Part shown: positions 18,790 through 35,150 of the stretch, piece after piece | How positions within the stretch are numbered: position 1 is the first letter of the stretch | Layout of the letters: each line of letters opens with the position of its first letter | Source: Cellulomonas fengjieae | Lineage (GTDB): Bacteria; Actinomycetota; Actinomycetes; Actinomycetales; Cellulomonadaceae | Length of the DNA stretch: 64,000 bases | Direction: 5' to 3' | Assembly: GCF_018388465.1 (NCBI RefSeq) | Contig: NZ_CP074404.1 | Span: 558,001-622,000, forward strand | Program-made: the position numbers and the translations under genes | The notes under the pieces: generated by a model | Told to the model about the DNA's origin: nothing | Databases searched by the model: none | The model's input: the letters and a program-made list of their open reading frames with translations, nothing else

Positions 18790-26194
<7,405 letters not shown>

Positions 26195-27239: not shown

Positions 27240-28700
27240 GTGCCCAAGGTCCTCACCGCCGGTTCTCCCTGGCGCGTCATCCTCCTGTTCGCCGTCCCCC
27301 TGCTCGTCGGCAACGTCGTCCAGCAGCTCTACCAAGCGGCCGACGCCGTCGTCGTCGGCCGCGTCCTGGGCGTCGACTCGCTCGCCGCCGTCGGCGCCAC
27401 CGGCGCCCTGCTGTTCCTCCTGCTCGGCTTCGCGTGGGGCATGACCAGCGGCTTCGCCATCCCGACCGCGCACGCGTTCGGCGCCGGCGACCACGCGGCC
27501 GTGCGGCGCTCCGTCGCCGCCGGCGCGGTCCTGTCCGGCGCGACCAGCGCGGTGCTCACCGTCGCGGCGCCGCTGCTGGCCGGTCCGGCGCTGCGGATGC
27601 TCAAGACCCCCGAGGAGCTGCTCCCCGAGGCGACGACCTTCGCGGTGATCAGCTTTCTCGGCGCCAGCACGATGATGTTCTTCAACTTCCTGTCGGCCAT
27701 CATCCGGGCGATCGGCGACTCGCGGACCCCGCTGATCTTCCTGAGCATCAGCTGCGTCCTGAACATCGTGCTCGTGGTGGTCGCGGTCGCCGGGCTCGGC
27801 ATGGGCGTCGCCGGTGCCGCGGTGTCGACGGTCCTGTCGCAGGCGGTCTCGGTCGCGCTGTGCCTGGAGTTCGTGCGACGACGCGTCCCCGTGCTGCACG
27901 TGCGCCGCGAGGACTGGCGCGTGAGCGGGCACGAGCTGCGTAGGCACCTGAAGCTCGGGCTCCCGATGGGGTTCCAGGCCTCGATCATCGCCATCGGCAC
28001 GCTCGCCGTGCAGGTCCGCCTCAACGGGCTGGGCTCGGAGGCGGTCGCCGCCTACACGACCGCCACACGCGTGGACGGGCTCGCGGTCGCGCTGCTGGCG
28101 TCGCTGGGCCTGGCTGTCTCGATGTTCGTCGCACAGAACCTGGGCGGCGGGCGGCCGGACCGCATCCGCCAGGGCGTCGTGCACGGCCTGTGGATGTCCG
28201 TCGCCGGCTCGCTCCTGCTCGGTGTCGTCCTGGTGGCGGCGGGCTCGACCCTCGTCGGCCTGTTCGTCGGAAGCGGTGAGGAGCGCGTCGTCGAGATGGC
28301 CGCGCACTACCTGCTGGTCAACGGAGCGCTCTACGCCGTGCTGGGCGTGCTGTTCGTGCTGCGCGGCGCCCTGCAGGGACTCGGGCAGACCGTGATCCCG
28401 ACCGCGACCGGCGTGGTCGAGCTCATCTGCCGGGTCGGTGCCGCGAGCGTCCTCGGCGCGGCCTTCGGGTACAACGGTGTGGTCTGGGGCAACCCGCTGG
28501 CCTGGATCGGCGCGGTCGTGCTGCTGGTGCCCGCCTACCGGGCGGCGCAGCGGCGCCTCGCGCTGCAGCCCGTGACGGGTGCGGTCGGAGCGGTCCTCGG
28601 GGACGCGACGTCGCCGCGGCGCGTCACGCGCCTGCGGCGTCGGGGGCCGTCGGGTCGCAAGGTCACGCGGCGCCACCGCGTGCCGACGCCACCTGCGTGA
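27240..28700 (+). CDS. MATE-family efflux transporter
   Basis: 486 residues from GTG 27240 (weak AAGG site). Twelve hydrophobic helices are visible. The N-terminal pattern SPWRVILLFAVPLLVGNVVQQLYQAADAVVVGRVLG is the standard first two helices of MATE pumps, and the second half repeats the plan (LKLGLPMGFQASIIAIGTLAVQ). Members export cationic drugs or metabolites using Na+ or H+. The last 40 residues are basic and unusual for the family (RRVTRLRRRGPSGRKVTRRHR). Likely control is through the palindrome at 27148-27165. Confidence 0.88.
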   Translation: MPKVLTAGSPWRVILLFAVPLLVGNVVQQLYQAADAVVVGRVLGVDSLAAVGATGALLFLLLGFAWGMTSGFAIPTAHAFGAGDHAAVRRSVAAGAVLSGATSAVLTVAAPLLAGPALRMLKTPEELLPEATTFAVISFLGASTMMFFNFLSAIIRAIGDSRTPLIFLSISCVLNIVLVVVAVAGLGMGVAGAAVSTVLSQAVSVALCLEFVRRRVPVLHVRREDWRVSGHELRRHLKLGLPMGFQASIIAIGTLAVQVRLNGLGSEAVAAYTTATRVDGLAVALLASLGLAVSMFVAQNLGGGRPDRIRQGVVHGLWMSVAGSLLLGVVLVAAGSTLVGLFVGSGEERVVEMAAHYLLVNGALYAVLGVLFVLRGALQGLGQTVIPTATGVVELICRVGAASVLGAAFGYNGVVWGNPLAWIGAVVLLVPAYRAAQRRLALQPVTGAVGAVLGDATSPRRVTRLRRRGPSGRKVTRRHRVPTPPA

Positions 28701-28765: not shown

Positions 28766-28782
28766 TGTCCGGATGTCGGACA
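28766..28782. promoter_or_regulatory. Palindrome upstream of the XRE-TPR gene
   Basis: TGTCCG and CGGACA flank five bases. It lies 55-71 bases before the predicted transcription start. It shares the GTCCGG half-site with the palindrome at 30234-30252 that precedes the small peptide gene, so the XRE protein may bind both. Confidence 0.5.
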
Positions 28783-28836
28783 TCGCGTCGCCCGCTGCGC
28801 TACCGGTGGGCCCCGCGCGGTCCCTATCGTGGCAAC

Positions 28837-30153
28837 GTGAACCCGCTGAGCCAACGGATGCGCGACGCCCGGGACAAGGCAGGGCTGAGCCAGGGCGAGC
28901 TCGCGCGTCGGGCGGCGGTGCACCCCACGTACATCTCGCACGTCGAGAACGGTCGCCGCGGACTGGGCCACGAGGCGCTCGCCCGGGTCGCCGAGGCGCT
29001 GGGTGTCACGTCCGCCTACCTCCTCGACGGCGAGGAGGCCTCCGACTACCGGTCGGCCGGGAGCGCCCTGGTCGAGGCGCGTCGGCTCTCCCGGATGGGC
29101 GAGCCGCGGGCCGCCGCGGAGGTGCTCAGGCGAGTCGACGTGAGCGGCCTCGACATCGACACGGCCGCGCGGTTCGGGCTCGCGCTGGCCGAGACGCTTG
29201 ACCTCGCCGGGGATCTGGAGGCGTCGATCGACGCACTGGAGACCCTGTGCGGCCGTCTCATCGAGTCGCGCCGGTACCCGCAGGCGGCCTACGCCGCGAT
29301 GCGCATCGTCATGGCCCTGACCGAGGTCGCCGACCTGCACCGGGCGGTCGCCCGCGGGGAGCACCTGCTCGCGCAGCTGCCGGCGTCGGCGGCCGGCAGT
29401 GACGAGGTCGTCCGGCTGGAGTCGACGATCATCTGGGCGTACATCGCGCGCGGTGACACCACCTACGCGCGGTACCGCGGGCGCCAGCTGCTCGCGCACA
29501 CCCGCCAGCACGGCTCGGCGCGCGCGGTCTCGTCGGTGCACTGGAACCTCGCGTTCGTGGACGACGCCCTCGGCGACCCCGACGCGGCGCTCGCGCAGCT
29601 GGAGTCCGCGATCGCGTTGGCCGGGACGGACGAGATCGACCGCGACCTTCCGCGGCTGCGCCTGGACCGCGCCCTGCTGCTGGTGTCCGTGGACCCGCCG
29701 CGTGCCGCCGACGCGCTCGCGGACCTCGACGCCGTGCAGACCGCGCTCGAGGTGGGGGAGTCGCAGATCGAGCTCGCCCGCGCCGAGTCGGTCCGGTCGA
29801 GGGTGTGGCTGCTCCTCGACGACCCTGTCGCGGCGCAGCGCCACGCGGCCCGGGCGGTCGAGCTGCTGCGCGAAGGGGTGCGCAGGGACTCGGCGTCCGC
29901 GCACGAGGCGCTCGGCGACGCGATGCTCGCGCAGAGGTCGCGTCCCGAGGCGGTCAAGGAGTACCGGTCCGCGGCCGAGCTCCTCGACATGATCTCGTCG
30001 GGGCGGTCCGCGGCCGTGCTGTGGCGCCGGATCGGTGACCGACTGCGCGTCGCCGGGGACGATGACGAGCGGGTGGTCGAGGCCTACGGCCGTGCGCTCG
30101 CGGCCGCCGGGATCCGCGGGACGCTCCCGGCACCGCCCCCGCACGCGGGGTAA
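28837..30153 (+). CDS. XRE-family regulator with TPR sensor domain (RRNPP-like)
   Basis: 438 residues from GTG 28837. TATCGT at 28825-28830 puts the transcription start at this codon, so the mRNA is probably leaderless. Residues 4-60 are an HTH_3 domain (QRMRDARDKAGLSQGELAR, then HPTYISHVENGRRGLGHE). Residues about 75-430 are helical pairs typical of tetratricopeptide repeats, for example the units around WNLAFVDDALGDPDAALAQLE and RARVWLLL-like VRSRVWLLLDDPVAAQRHA. XRE plus a C-terminal TPR array is the plan of RRNPP receptors that bind small secreted peptides. A 40-residue secreted-peptide gene follows 120 bases downstream on the same strand, as in Rgg or PlcR loci. Actinobacterial XRE-TPR proteins also occur without a peptide partner. 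Confidence 0.85.
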   Translation: MNPLSQRMRDARDKAGLSQGELARRAAVHPTYISHVENGRRGLGHEALARVAEALGVTSAYLLDGEEASDYRSAGSALVEARRLSRMGEPRAAAEVLRRVDVSGLDIDTAARFGLALAETLDLAGDLEASIDALETLCGRLIESRRYPQAAYAAMRIVMALTEVADLHRAVARGEHLLAQLPASAAGSDEVVRLESTIIWAYIARGDTTYARYRGRQLLAHTRQHGSARAVSSVHWNLAFVDDALGDPDAALAQLESAIALAGTDEIDRDLPRLRLDRALLLVSVDPPRAADALADLDAVQTALEVGESQIELARAESVRSRVWLLLDDPVAAQRHAARAVELLREGVRRDSASAHEALGDAMLAQRSRPEAVKEYRSAAELLDMISSGRSAAVLWRRIGDRLRVAGDDDERVVEAYGRALAAAGIRGTLPAPPPHAG

Positions 30154-30197
30154 ACGTGGGCAAACGGGCCATGTCTACCCCGTGGTGTCCTACGTCA

Positions 30198-30252
30198 TTG
30201 CGCCCCAGACATCGGATCGGGACCATTCGAGGTGTACCGGACAGTCCGGTAC
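30198..30252 (+). promoter_or_regulatory. Promoter and operator of the small peptide gene
   Basis: TTGCGC (30198-30203), 17-base spacer and GACCAT (30221-30226) form a plausible promoter with a start near 30233. Immediately downstream is GTACCGGACAGTCCGGTAC (30234-30252), a perfect dyad with one central base. A protein bound there would block transcription at the start site. Confidence 0.6.
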
Positions 30253-30273
30253 TCCCTCCGGAAGGTTCTCCCC

Positions 30274-30396
30274 ATGAAGAAGCTCAGCATCGCCCTCCTC
30301 GTCGCCCTCGCCGCCTTCGCCGGTGTCAGCGGAGCCACGGCCGCATCCGCAGCCGCCCACGTCTCGGCCCAGCCGTGCTGCAAGATCGTGCACTGA
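30274..30396 (+). CDS. Small secreted peptide, candidate signal
   Basis: 40 residues from ATG 30274, with GGAAGG eight bases ahead. It starts MKKLSIALLVALAAFAGVSG, a complete Sec signal peptide, then an Ala-rich stretch with ASA-type cleavage options. The expected mature end is about 14 residues, AAHVSAQPCCKIVH. The adjacent Cys pair could be oxidised or lipid-free thiols. The gene has its own promoter, a palindromic operator before it and a hairpin terminator after it, so it is a real transcription unit despite its size. Its place behind an XRE-TPR regulator suggests a pheromone-like ligand. A bacteriocin-like or host-defence-type peptide is an alternative. Confidence 0.75.
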   Translation: MKKLSIALLVALAAFAGVSGATAASAAAHVSAQPCCKIVH

Positions 30397-30431
30397 GACC
30401 ACTGGACACGGTGTCACCGGGTGCGTGGGCC

Positions 30432-30457
30432 GGCCTTCGGCGGGGACGCCGAAGGCC
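30432..30457 (+). terminator. Terminator of the peptide gene
   Basis: An 11-bp perfect stem, GGCCTTCGGCG and CGCCGAAGGCC, closed by GGGA, 36 bases after the peptide stop. It lacks a T-run but is the strongest hairpin in the area, and it isolates the peptide unit from the downstream genes. Confidence 0.6.
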
Positions 30458-30770: not shown

Positions 30771-33700
30771 GTGACCGTCCCCGTGCGCACCTCCGGCCCG
30801 GGACCCGACCAGGCTCCTGAGACCGGCGCAGACTCAGCCGACCGCCCGCTTCTCGTCGAGCCCCCGACCGCTGCCGAGGTGCTCGAGGGCGCCGTCGCCA
30901 CCTGGCGGGCGTCGCTGGTCGAGGCGGCAGGGGGGTCCACGCTCGTCGACGTCGAGCTGCTCGGTGACGCCGCGCTCGACCTGTCGGCAGCGCACCCGTC
31001 CGGGATCTCCCAGCTGTTCGCGGGGCGCGAGACCCGGCTGTCCAACCTCATCCGCGAGGGCTCGGCGCTGTCGACCGCACGCCGCCGCGCGCGGGCCGTG
31101 AGCGCCCGTGCCGCGGTCTACGCCCAGCGGTACGGCATCGCGCCCACGTCGCTGGCCATCGGGGTCGCCACCTGGACCGAGCGCACCACCCCGGACATCG
31201 CGAGCGACGACGTCGCCGCCCTCGCGTCGGTGACCCGGCAGCGCACGCCGGACGGCGAGCAGCCGGCCGACTCGGTCCCCCGCACCGTGCGGGCGCCCGT
31301 CCTGCTGCGGCCGGTCACGCTGCGCGCCCGGGGCTCGGGCGAGAGCGACTACGAGCTCGCGCTCGAGCCGTCGCTGGAGGTCAACCCGGTGCTCGCCCGG
31401 GCGCTGCGCTCGCGCGGGGCGCTGCTCGACGCCGGCGCCGTGGCGCGGGGCACGTTCGGCTCCGACGGGTTCGACCCGCGCGGCGCGCTGCAGCGGCTCA
31501 CCTCGCTCGGCGAGGCCGTCCTCGACGACTTCTCGATGAGCGAGCGGGTCGTCGTCGGCACCTTCGTGCACCCCGGCCAGATCCTGGTCGACGACCTCGA
31601 CAACCTGTCCGGCACCCTCGAGCGCCACGAGGTCGTCGCGGCGCTCGCCGGCGTGGAGGAGTCCCGCACCCGGCTGCGCCGCATCCTGCCCCAGCCGGTG
31701 CCCGGCGACCGCGACCCCGGCCACGAGCGCGGCGTTGGGGACCTCGACCCCGCGCAGCAGCACGTGCTCGACGTGGTCGCCACCGGCACGCACCTGTTCG
31801 TCGACGCCCCGGCGGGTGCCGATGTGACCGGAACCCTGGCCGCGCTCGTCGCCGACGCCGCGGCCACCGGCCGGACGGTCCTGTACGTGCCGGGGCACCG
31901 CCGGTCGGCCACCGCGCTCGCGGACCGCTTGGGTGCCCTGGGCCTCGGTGACCTGCTCCTCGACGTGGCCCCCGACGCCGGTTGGCGCGCGGCGATCTCC
32001 CGTCGCCTGCTCGGTGCCATGACCCTCGAGGCGCCCCCGGTCGACGCGAACGGCGTCGTGGCCCTGCGCAGCGAGCTGGTCGGCACGCGGGAGCGCCTGC
32101 GCTCGTACGTCGACGCGCTGCACACCGAGCGCGCACCGTGGGGCGTCTCGGCGTACGACGCGCTGCAGCAGCTGGCGCGCCTGACCTCGACGCGGCCGAC
32201 GCCGAAGACGACCGTCCGCCTCCCCGCCGACGTCGCCCGCCTGCTCGACGCCGACCGGCGGGCCGACCTCACGGCGGACCTGGTCCGGGCGGGAGAGCTC
32301 GGCGCGTTCCGCATCCGGCCCACCGACACCCCCTGGTACGGCGCCGACCTGCGCACGCGTGCCGACGCCGACGCCGTGGTGCACCGGCTCGCCCGCGTGC
32401 TCGACTCCGGGCTGCCCGGGCTCGTGGCGCGCACCGCGCAGGTGGCCGCCGAGACGGGGCTGCAGCAGGCGACCACCGTCGTGGCCTGGGCCGAGCAGCT
32501 CACCATGCTCGACGGGGTGCGTGCGGCGCTCGACGTGTTCCAGCCGGTCGTCTTCGAGCGCACCGCCGCCGACCTGGTCGCCGCGACGGCGACGAAGCAG
32601 TGGCGCGCCGAGCGTGGTCTGGAGATGGGGTACTGGCTGCGCCGGCGGCTGCGCAAGCAGTCGAAGGACATGGTGCGCCCCGGTCGTCCCGTCGCGGACC
32701 TGCACTCCGCCCTGCTGGAGGTGCAGGCGCAGCGCGAGGTCTGGCAGGCGCACTGCCCGTCCGGCGGGTGGCCCCGGTTGCCCGACGGCCTCGAGCACAT
32801 CGAGGAGGAGTACGCCGCCGTGCGGGCCGACCTCGACGCGCTCGACGAGGTGCTCGCGACGACCCCCGCCGGTGCGGGCCTGTCCGCGCTGCCCTTCGCA
32901 GCCCTCACCGAGCGGCTCACGCGGCTGCGCGCCGACCTGGGTGCGCTCACCGACCTGCCCGAGCGCACCGCCATCCTGCACCGCCTGCGGGCTGCCGGCC
33001 TCGGCCCGCTCGTGGACGACCTGGCGGACCGCGGCACCGATCCCGCGCTCGCGCCGGCCGAGCTGGACCTGGCCTGGTGGAGCACGGTGATCGAGCAGAT
33101 CCTGGGCGAGGACCCCGCGCTGGCCGGTTACGACGGTGCCGCGCTGGGTGCGCTGTCCAACCAGTACGCCACGCTCGACCGCGCGCACGTGAAGAGCCTG
33201 TCCGGTCCGGTGCTCGGCGCGGTCGTCGGGCACGTCTCGCACGCCCTGCGCCAGCACCGCGAGCAGGCCGAGGCGCTGTTCGCGGACCTGGTCGACGAGC
33301 GGCTGACCTCGTTGCGGGACACCATCGTGCGGCACCCCGACGTGGCGCGACGGCTGCGGCCGGTCATCGCAGCGAGCCCCATGCTCGTCCCGCAGGTGCT
33401 GCCGCCGACGCGCACCGTCGACCTCGTGGTCATCGACTCGGCCGCGCACCTGCCGGTCGAGGTGGCGCTCGCCGCGGTCGCGCGCGGTCGCCAGGTGGTC
33501 GTGGTGGGCGACGCGCGGTGCGCCTCGGGCAGCGCCGTGCGCGAGCTCGCGAGCGTCCTGCCGTCCGTCGCCCTGCGCGCCGACTCGTCGCGGCGCGACC
33601 CCTACCTCACCGCGTTCCTCGCGGCGCACGGCTACGCGGGCGTCCTGCGCCCGACGCCCCTGCCGCAGCACCGGCCCCTGGTCAGCCTCGACCTCGTCGA

Positions 33701-35150
33701 CGGCACCGGGATGCCCGACGGCCAGACCGGCTCGGTCGACTCGACGCGCGAGGAGGTCGAGCACGTCGTCGAGCTGGTGGTCACGCACGCGCTCCTGCGG
33801 CCGGACGAGACGCTCGCGGTCATCACCGCGACCTCCGCCCACGCGGAGGCGGTCCGCGAGGCCGTCCTGTCGGAGGTCCGCGGCAACCCCGCGCTGGCCG
33901 CGTTCTTCGACTCCGGCCGCACGGACCCGTTCGTCGTCACCGACCTGCCGAACGTGGCCGGGCTGCGCCGCGAGGCGATCATCCTGTCGCTCGGCCTCGG
34001 CCGGACCCCGCACCGCAGGGTGCTGCACACGTTCGGTCCCATCTCCGCGCCGGGCGGCGACGCGCTGCTGCTCGACGCTCTCGGCTCCACGGCGCACCGG
34101 CTGACCGTCGTCGCGTGCTTCGGCTCCGAGGACCTCGACCCCGAGCGTCTGCGCGGTCCCGGTCCGCGGCTCCTCGCGGACGTGCTCGCCTTCGCGGCCC
34201 GCCGCGGCGCCGGTCAGGACGTCGCCGACCTGGTGACGGTGCCGGAGCCGACCGACCCGCTGCTGCGGTCGCTGACCGTCGCCGCGGCCGCCGCGGACGA
34301 CGCCCTCGCCGCGGCCCACGAGCCGGACCGGCTGCTGCTGGACCTCGCCGAGCGCCTGTGGAAGCACGGCCTGCTGGTGGAGGCCGACCACGGCATCCCG
34401 GGCGGGGACCGGATCCCGCTGGTCGTCGGACACCCGGACCTGCCCGGCGAGATGCTGGTCGCCGTCCTCACCGACGACGCGCAGTACACGGCGGAGCCCA
34501 GCGTCCGGGTCCGCGACCGCCTCACGCCGGACCGGCTGGAGCGCGTCGGGTGGAGCGTCATCCGCGTCTGGGCGGCCGCCGCCTTCATGGACCCGCAGGC
34601 CGAGGTGGACCGCATCCGGCGGGCCGTGCACGCGCGCGTTCCCGGCCCGGTGGCGCCGCGCACGGCGCCGCTGCAGCTGGGCCTGATCGACGAGCCCGAC
34701 GACGCCGAGGAGCTGCCGACGCCCGCCCGTCGCCGCGACCCGCGTCCGCCGACCGGGGTCTGGTCGACGGTGGAGGTCGTGCAGCAGGCCGCGCAGGCGA
34801 CCGGTCCCGCCGTGGAGCCCGGCGGGTCGCCCGCCGACGGCGCCGCGTCACCGGTGGCGCCGCCCGAGCCGGGTGAGCCGTCCCAGGACGACCCGCGGCC
34901 GGCGGGCCGGGCCCTCCAGCTCGCGCTGGCGGTGCCGACGCGGAAGCGTCCCGACGTCCGCCGCGGCCTGCCGATCGGCGCCTACAGCGACGACCAGCTG
35001 GACGACCTGGTGGAGTGGCTGCAGTCGGACGAGCAGGAGCGGACGCGCGAGCAGCTGGCGGACGCCCTGCGCGACGAGCTCGGGATCACGCGCCGCTCCT
35101 ACCGGATCGACACCGCGATCCGCGGCGCCATCACCCGCGCCATGCACTGA
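30771..35150 (+). CDS. Degenerate SF1 helicase-like protein with Vsr/MTES-type C-terminal domain
   Basis: 1459 residues from GTG 30771; TAGCGT at 30759-30764 suggests a leaderless mRNA. The layout follows Dna2/Upf1-type SF1 helicases: DLDPAQQHVLDVVATGTHLFV leads to the P-loop position, but there the sequence is APAGADVTGT (near residue 345) with no GK[ST]. The motif II position reads VVIDSAAHL instead of DEAS, motif III VVGDARCAS lacks Gln, and the motif V/VI region (near 1053-1110) lacks the usual Gln and Arg. Residues about 1180-1290 resemble the MTES_1575/Vsr-like endonuclease fold, keeping an Asp (LTDDAQY) and the RDRLTPDRLERVGW helix. The reading frame is intact, so the losses look selected rather than decayed. 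The C-terminus (DDQLDDLVEWLQS onward) is a separate small helical domain. Confidence 0.8.
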   Translation: MTVPVRTSGPGPDQAPETGADSADRPLLVEPPTAAEVLEGAVATWRASLVEAAGGSTLVDVELLGDAALDLSAAHPSGISQLFAGRETRLSNLIREGSALSTARRRARAVSARAAVYAQRYGIAPTSLAIGVATWTERTTPDIASDDVAALASVTRQRTPDGEQPADSVPRTVRAPVLLRPVTLRARGSGESDYELALEPSLEVNPVLARALRSRGALLDAGAVARGTFGSDGFDPRGALQRLTSLGEAVLDDFSMSERVVVGTFVHPGQILVDDLDNLSGTLERHEVVAALAGVEESRTRLRRILPQPVPGDRDPGHERGVGDLDPAQQHVLDVVATGTHLFVDAPAGADVTGTLAALVADAAATGRTVLYVPGHRRSATALADRLGALGLGDLLLDVAPDAGWRAAISRRLLGAMTLEAPPVDANGVVALRSELVGTRERLRSYVDALHTERAPWGVSAYDALQQLARLTSTRPTPKTTVRLPADVARLLDADRRADLTADLVRAGELGAFRIRPTDTPWYGADLRTRADADAVVHRLARVLDSGLPGLVARTAQVAAETGLQQATTVVAWAEQLTMLDGVRAALDVFQPVVFERTAADLVAATATKQWRAERGLEMGYWLRRRLRKQSKDMVRPGRPVADLHSALLEVQAQREVWQAHCPSGGWPRLPDGLEHIEEEYAAVRADLDALDEVLATTPAGAGLSALPFAALTERLTRLRADLGALTDLPERTAILHRLRAAGLGPLVDDLADRGTDPALAPAELDLAWWSTVIEQILGEDPALAGYDGAALGALSNQYATLDRAHVKSLSGPVLGAVVGHVSHALRQHREQAEALFADLVDERLTSLRDTIVRHPDVARRLRPVIAASPMLVPQVLPPTRTVDLVVIDSAAHLPVEVALAAVARGRQVVVVGDARCASGSAVRELASVLPSVALRADSSRRDPYLTAFLAAHGYAGVLRPTPLPQHRPLVSLDLVDGTGMPDGQTGSVDSTREEVEHVVELVVTHALLRPDETLAVITATSAHAEAVREAVLSEVRGNPALAAFFDSGRTDPFVVTDLPNVAGLRREAIILSLGLGRTPHRRVLHTFGPISAPGGDALLLDALGSTAHRLTVVACFGSEDLDPERLRGPGPRLLADVLAFAARRGAGQDVADLVTVPEPTDPLLRSLTVAAAAADDALAAAHEPDRLLLDLAERLWKHGLLVEADHGIPGGDRIPLVVGHPDLPGEMLVAVLTDDAQYTAEPSVRVRDRLTPDRLERVGWSVIRVWAAAAFMDPQAEVDRIRRAVHARVPGPVAPRTAPLQLGLIDEPDDAEELPTPARRRDPRPPTGVWSTVEVVQQAAQATGPAVEPGGSPADGAASPVAPPEPGEPSQDDPRPAGRALQLALAVPTRKRPDVRRGLPIGAYSDDQLDDLVEWLQSDEQERTREQLADALRDELGITRRSYRIDTAIRGAITRAMH

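Follow-up and report, generated by a model that had tools for sequence, protein, structure and literature searches.

In a 64,000-nucleotide window of the Cellulomonas fengjieae genome (the whole stretch of DNA that was analyzed, from a genome of one 3.99-Mb contig), a gene for an XRE-type regulator with tetratricopeptide repeats (TPRs) is followed by a gene for a 40-residue peptide. We consider it likely that the two genes form an RRNPP-like unit for autocrine or quorum peptide signaling whose signal carries a dicysteine; the peptide would be imported, bound by the regulator, and read as a measure of cell density. The regulator, a putative intracellular peptide receptor of 438 amino acids, is encoded on the forward strand at 28837 to 30153 with a GTG start, and the gene for the propeptide (MKKLSIALLVALAAFAGVSGATAASAAAHVSAQPCCKIVH) lies downstream on the same strand at 30274 to 30396 with an ATG start, after a gap of 120 bp. 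The propeptide begins with MKK, continues through a hydrophobic stretch to an Ala-X-Ala sequence (judged by eye and with a hydrophobicity filter, not SignalP), and ends in PCCKIVH. On the assumption of a cut after Ala-Ser-Ala, a site chosen by eye, the predicted mature peptide is AAHVSAQPCCKIVH (30352 to 30393, forward strand). The initial annotation of this DNA had described an XRE and TPR-like regulator beside a small open reading frame (ORF) for a signal peptide, a description borne out by helix-turn-helix (HTH) profiles, a predicted TPR superhelix, and the 40-residue ORF; it made no mention of the dicysteine motif, of tandem peptide copies, of a second pair, or of the spread across the class.

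Orthologues of the regulator, here called type A (at least 53% identity), were found in at least 27 of 81 genomes of the genus; this and the other counts of genomes with a regulator match below are lower bounds, with candidates scored in part per genome. All 27 type-A loci possess one or more downstream signal-like small ORFs bearing a C-terminal PCC. The 43 peptide ORFs at these loci without exception read PCCK, where the filter demanded PCC and left the Lys unconstrained, and the residues between the signal sequence and the motif, as well as those after it, are variable. The conservation of the peptide resides in this invariant PCCK motif. Tandem copies (two to five) occur at nine of the 27 loci, with five PCCK genes behind a single receptor at L042 and four each at L053 and L054; a search of the C. 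fengjieae genome with the type-A peptide profile found no second copy.

The same genome encodes a second regulator (G000:C1:2433194-2434483) that is 38% identical to the first and is preceded by a peptide ORF ending in GGASGCCKTIN. Matches to this type-B regulator (E 1e-20) were present in at least 99 of 221 genomes, and at least four of 25 genera, of the family. Cys-Cys (CC) is found near the peptide C terminus at 40 of 42 type-B loci (G049 counted twice), mostly as GCC[KRW] and usually with the ending GCC[KR]xx; the scan revealed no CC peptide at L093 and L094. It covered 44 loci in total, and the remaining two, L106 and L107, carry the orphan peptides described below. For loci sampled from three other genera of the family, 19 of 20 have a CC peptide and L153 alone does not.

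Similar pairs extend beyond the family. At the order level, a regulator match was present in at least 24 of 396 genomes, and 11 of 13 loci from other families (L173 to L185, among which L176 and L185 overlap) have a small signal-like ORF with CC near its C terminus; at L179 the CC is internal to a longer frame, and L184 lacks a CC peptide. At the class level, at least 91 of 394 genomes match a 16-regulator profile at E 1e-30. The peptide ends exactly in CC at 27 of 29 loci in this group (L192 to L220) and is mostly divergent from the regulator; just 235 and 309 bp of upstream DNA were available at L192 and L208. A second CC peptide of 53 to 54 residues, with tails such as GGSDFCC, was observed on the opposite side of the regulator at four loci of family f38 (L205, L206, L209, and L212). 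CC peptides accompany 16 of 40 additional hand-picked loci, weaker matches included, and none was found at the nine f37 loci, which are Streptomyces-like and probably belong to the Streptomycetaceae. Pooled over the class, a strict CC peptide stands beside 150 of 183 distinct regulators, within 400 bp for 148 of the 183; the pool combines best matches with hand-picked loci, is non-random, and leaves out the phylum-wide loci. For these 150 regulators the peptide gene is upstream on the same strand in 71 cases, upstream and divergent in 45, downstream on the same strand in 28, and downstream on the opposite strand in six. The distinct strict peptides number 169, of which 43 end exactly in CC; tails of this kind include WPGMCC and PGDFCC. 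The 33 regulators lacking a strict peptide include L192 and L208, with their short upstream DNA, as well as L041 and L235, whose CC peptides fall beyond the filter limits, and L179, which has the internal CC only; the last three were scored as positive in the tree and residue comparisons described below and are not among the 150. A phylum-wide draw gave matches at E 1e-40 in at least 15 of 396 genomes and a CC peptide at one of 14 loci (L290). Records of such peptides carry organism names that include Jiangella alkaliphila, Nocardioides, Nanopelagicales, Aquipuribacter, and Nonomuraea; families f38, f45, f44, and f35 are termed Jiangella-, Nocardioides-, Nanopelagicales-, and Nonomuraea-like by virtue of identical or near-identical peptides. 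Among the matches listed (120 of 135), the existing annotations are hypothetical or uncharacterized. A few of the phylum-wide loci have signal-like ORFs of about 30 residues with other tails; those next to the distant XRE-TPR genes of L288 and L289 are about 33 residues long and share the tails TWSDGH and SWSDGHL. In some f35 relatives (L225, L226, and L237), the corresponding position is occupied by a divergent signal-like ORF that lacks CC, with tails including GWNHPG and YGWGWPG; these ORFs are possibly switched signals.

The 64-kb window contains 39 loosely signal-like small ORFs, an abundance that would allow the peptide ORF to be a functionless chance neighbor of the regulator. The strict terminal-CC filter, which was defined only once the first peptides were known, was passed by one of the 39, the peptide itself. 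Across 249 of 260 loci that have a near-full regulator (about 1.05 Mb), no strict CC hits were found inside regulator genes, and the seven hits more than 1 kb from the regulator were each a further tandem copy; one hit near the regulator at L154 is probably spurious. The 11 loci that lack a regulator (40 kb) yielded only two orphan peptides, each found twice. Retention of the small ORF beside XRE-TPR orthologues, which the initial annotation had named as a check, is seen at all 27 type-A loci, at 40 of 42 and 19 of 20 loci in the two type-B sets, and at 150 of the 183 regulators of the class pool; together with the near-zero background, these counts contradict a chance association, to which we assign a negligible probability. 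On a quick tree built from 60 representatives, the label for the CC peptide requires nine changes, as compared to 16.4 for shuffled labels (none of 500 shuffles gave so low a number), and four or more changes are imposed by well-supported branches. On the basis of these values, the label clusters on the tree yet was gained or lost more than once.

The DNA that precedes the first peptide gene at type-A loci is strongly conserved in the alignment and includes two candidate operators. The first is a GTC-N11-GAC element (GTCATTGCGCCCCAGAC, 30194 to 30210, forward strand), common to both paralogue groups. Upstream regions that contain it number 26 of 43 for type A and 63 of 74 for type B, versus 2.1 and 3.6 in shuffles, while no other GTC-GAC spacing exceeded 2 of 43 and 18 of 74; the shuffles preserve base content only, and kinship among the sequences inflates the counts. 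The longer form GTCAT-N9-GAC precedes the first peptide gene at 24 of 27 type-A loci (not L042, L053, or L054) and none of the later genes. In 23 f38 regions the N11 spacing is absent, with N9 in 14 and N12 in 13, and the GTC-GAC geometry is therefore not class-wide. The second element is the 19-bp palindrome GTACCGGACAGTCCGGTAC (30234 to 30252, no strand assigned), which had been reported as a perfect dyad and is indeed palindromic at every pair, with the center base unpaired. The dyad is situated 36 to 43 bp 5' of the start codon with at least seven of nine pairs at 26 of 27 type-A loci, and it is perfect at four. Because scores of 7/9 arise in approximately 11 to 25% of sequence windows at the same loci, the evidence for the dyad is its position and paired change rather than its score; the third pair is G-C at 13 loci, A-T at 10, and C-G at two. 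The copy at 30234 to 30252 is the only one genome-wide that has no mismatch to its pattern. A wider regulon controlled through the dyad was rejected on the basis of 41 hits with up to two mismatches versus 57 for the reversed pattern, and one controlled through GTCATTGCG-N5-GACA was set aside (40 versus 18 hits, with zero mismatch at the peptide promoter only). For the separate promoter claimed for the peptide gene, no sigma-70 consensus match was found, yet the DNA 5' of the gene is strongly conserved.

RRNPP_detector specifies a propeptide of 10 to 100 amino acids with a secretion signal, a receptor of 250 to 500 amino acids with a TPR hidden Markov model match at E <1e-5, and genes -60 to 400 bp apart (PMC10075063). 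The 40-residue propeptide with its signal-like start, the 438-residue receptor, and the 120-bp gap of the present pair agree with these values. The regulator matched HTH_31 (E 2e-12) and HTH_3 (E 7.2e-12) in the domain-profile scan, the type-B paralogue matched TPR_12 (E 1.6e-10), and all 16 aligned members of the regulator family matched a TPR model at an E cut-off of 0.01. The predicted structure (pLDDT 93) comprises an HTH domain and a TPR superhelix. Like this pair, the RRNPP systems of Bacillota (Rap-Phr, NprR-NprX, PlcR-PapR, Rgg-SHP, and PrgX-PrgQ) place an HTH and TPR receptor with a similar superhelix beside a signal-bearing propeptide. The pairs described here differ in that their hosts are Actinomycetes, the signal contains a vicinal Cys-Cys, nine of 27 type-A loci have several tandem propeptides per receptor, and no described receptor was matched over its full length (the PlcR profile aligned at positions 2 to 183, mostly HTH, E 9.2e-8). 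The Pfam RNPP C-terminal model was absent from the domain matches of the regulator and the aligned members.

In the proposed model, the propeptide would be exported by Sec, as its signal sequence suggests, and signal peptidase would release a short peptide that is conserved in the vicinal Cys-Cys near its C terminus. The peptide would re-enter the cell by way of an oligopeptide permease; the 14 genomes examined all encode OppA-like SBP_bac_5 proteins, with three in the source genome, which demonstrates capacity only. Inside the cell, the fold and co-conservation suggest that the peptide would bind the XRE-TPR protein in its TPR groove, and the receptor may then bind the peptide promoter differently at the conserved GTC-N11-GAC element, the 19-bp dyad, or both, providing autoregulation. 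The variable residues that flank the CC could confer species or paralogue specificity, with the CC itself serving as a common recognition or chemical feature. Candidate contact residues D207, N237, and R269 (numbering of the window regulator) are present in 98, 93, and 91% of 54 representative CC-peptide regulators, in 1, 0, and 0 of 11 outgroup regulators without a CC peptide, and in 11, 5, and 7 of 11 nearer regulators that lack a strict CC peptide, a contrast that is confounded by phylogeny. In the same comparison R390 is likewise conserved among the CC-peptide receptors and missing from most relatives that lack the peptide.

Several results weigh against this model. The best TPR match of the regulator (TPR_MalT, E 5.5e-5) is weaker than the 1e-5 threshold of RRNPP_detector, and the modeled fold resembles Rap and NprR but also unrelated TPR proteins. 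The dyad TGTCCGGATGTCGGACA before the regulator gene (28766 to 28782, no strand assigned) has 6-bp arms, but no matching site was found in the other 26 orthologues and it was rejected as a conserved operator. Purifying selection, also raised in the initial annotation, is weak over the whole peptide gene (ratio of mean dN and dS 0.78 for 210 pairs from 21 loci, with some pairs >1, in tests on approximately 40 codons that have little power), in contrast to the invariant PCCK. Export and re-import are deduced steps, and no importer gene adjoins the pair, so that the peptide might instead be a leader or membrane peptide that binds the regulator within the producing cell, prior to export or in its absence, for self-sensing rather than cell-cell signaling; given the signal-like N termini of all listed peptides, which are partly imposed by the filter, and the encoded OppA-like proteins, we judge this very improbable. 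Orphan PCCK peptides persist near an arabinofuranosidase gene in G031 (L106:5245, which also adjoins a DUF222 gene) and G056 (L107:683), where regulator matches are of HTH length only and no full-length receptor accompanies the peptide; these are possibly signals without a receptor, a loss, or another use. Furthermore, the peptide gene is the sole clear target of the conserved sites. Both observations, along with the suitability of vicinal Cys residues for metal or redox chemistry, would fit a secreted effector (a metal chelator, thiol buffer, or bacteriocin-like peptide) regulated by an XRE-TPR protein that senses something else. Such an effector appears unlikely when set against the free variation of the residues around the CC, the matching of each paralogous receptor with a distinct type of peptide (PCCK or GCC[KR]) as in ligand-receptor pairs, and the domain scan, which recognized no biosynthesis or immunity genes adjoining the pair; in addition, TPR superhelices usually bind peptides. 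RRNPP-like signaling thus remains our working model for the actinobacterial pair, supported by size, secretion signal, and adjacency as the initial annotation had proposed; we do not file the pair as a proven RRNPP member because its TPR match is below the published threshold and because we infer peptide binding and import.

The novelty lies in the conserved vicinal dicysteine and its spread across the class. We know of no vicinal Cys-Cys in the described RRNPP peptides and of no such dicysteine chemistry in the described RRNPP systems. Intracellular peptide sensing by TPR proteins has so far been described for Bacillota; the RRNPP census spans Firmicutes and viruses and calls actinobacterial signals typically enzyme-made small molecules (PMC10075063). 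The gamma-butyrolactone systems likewise achieve cell-cell signaling through transcription factors in the same phylum, according to a review that also mentions cyclic or modified peptides there (PMC4748050). Their signal is made by enzymes, where a ribosomal peptide is proposed here. NsdA-family TPR-like regulators of Streptomyces (NCBIfam NF053720) are also of the actinomycete TPR type, and their model gives a weak alignment over most of the regulator; however, the score of 12.7 bits does not reach the cut-off of 75, and the nine Streptomyces-like relatives lack the CC peptide. The open literature, with subscription papers and preprints mostly outside its scope, yielded no description of a dicysteine peptide-receptor family, which does not establish absence from print. 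If the working model is correct, it would open up ribosomal-peptide signaling in a phylum that matters for both antibiotics and carbon cycling, and the short propeptides and located candidate operators make it directly testable. The dicysteine poses a chemical question of disulfide, metal, or thiol exchange. More speculatively, and with less conviction than the two-gene unit itself, the pairs could represent an Actinomycetes-wide pheromone family, from Cellulomonas to Jiangella, Nocardioides, Nonomuraea, and small-genome Nanopelagicales relatives, in which the vicinal dicysteine would be the active part of the signal. Its oxidation or metal binding outside, followed by reduction once in the cell, would gate XRE-TPR sensing, and a single input would then combine cell density with the redox or metal state. 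Thiol exchange with a conserved receptor Cys was rejected, as Cys occurs in at most six of 16 sequences at every alignment column.

Other features of the locus were also assigned. A -10-like hexamer, TATCGT (28825 to 28830, forward strand), lies directly 5' of the regulator GTG and is kept in most orthologues in the alignment; on this basis it may serve as a promoter element and the regulator mRNA is likely leaderless. Broken type-A orthologues were rejected, the five internal "stops" being located at residue 431 of the translated stretch, which is the C terminus. The strong terminator claimed for the peptide gene corresponds to a GC-rich 11-bp hairpin at 30432 to 30457 (forward strand; 81-nucleotide folded stretch, z -2.26) and is weaker than described, as the hairpin scan found no T-run. 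According to the domain scan, the genes flanking the pair encode a MATE transporter (27240 to 28700, forward strand) and a large protein containing an MTES_1575 nuclease domain (30771 to 35150, forward strand), in agreement with the earlier statement that no importer is adjacent; the latter gene is downstream of the pair in close relatives too. Elsewhere in the window, an ORF of 2080 codons (19952 to 26194, forward strand) contains many similar repeats, and its C-terminal end is hydrophobic and basic, resembling a cell-wall anchored surface protein.
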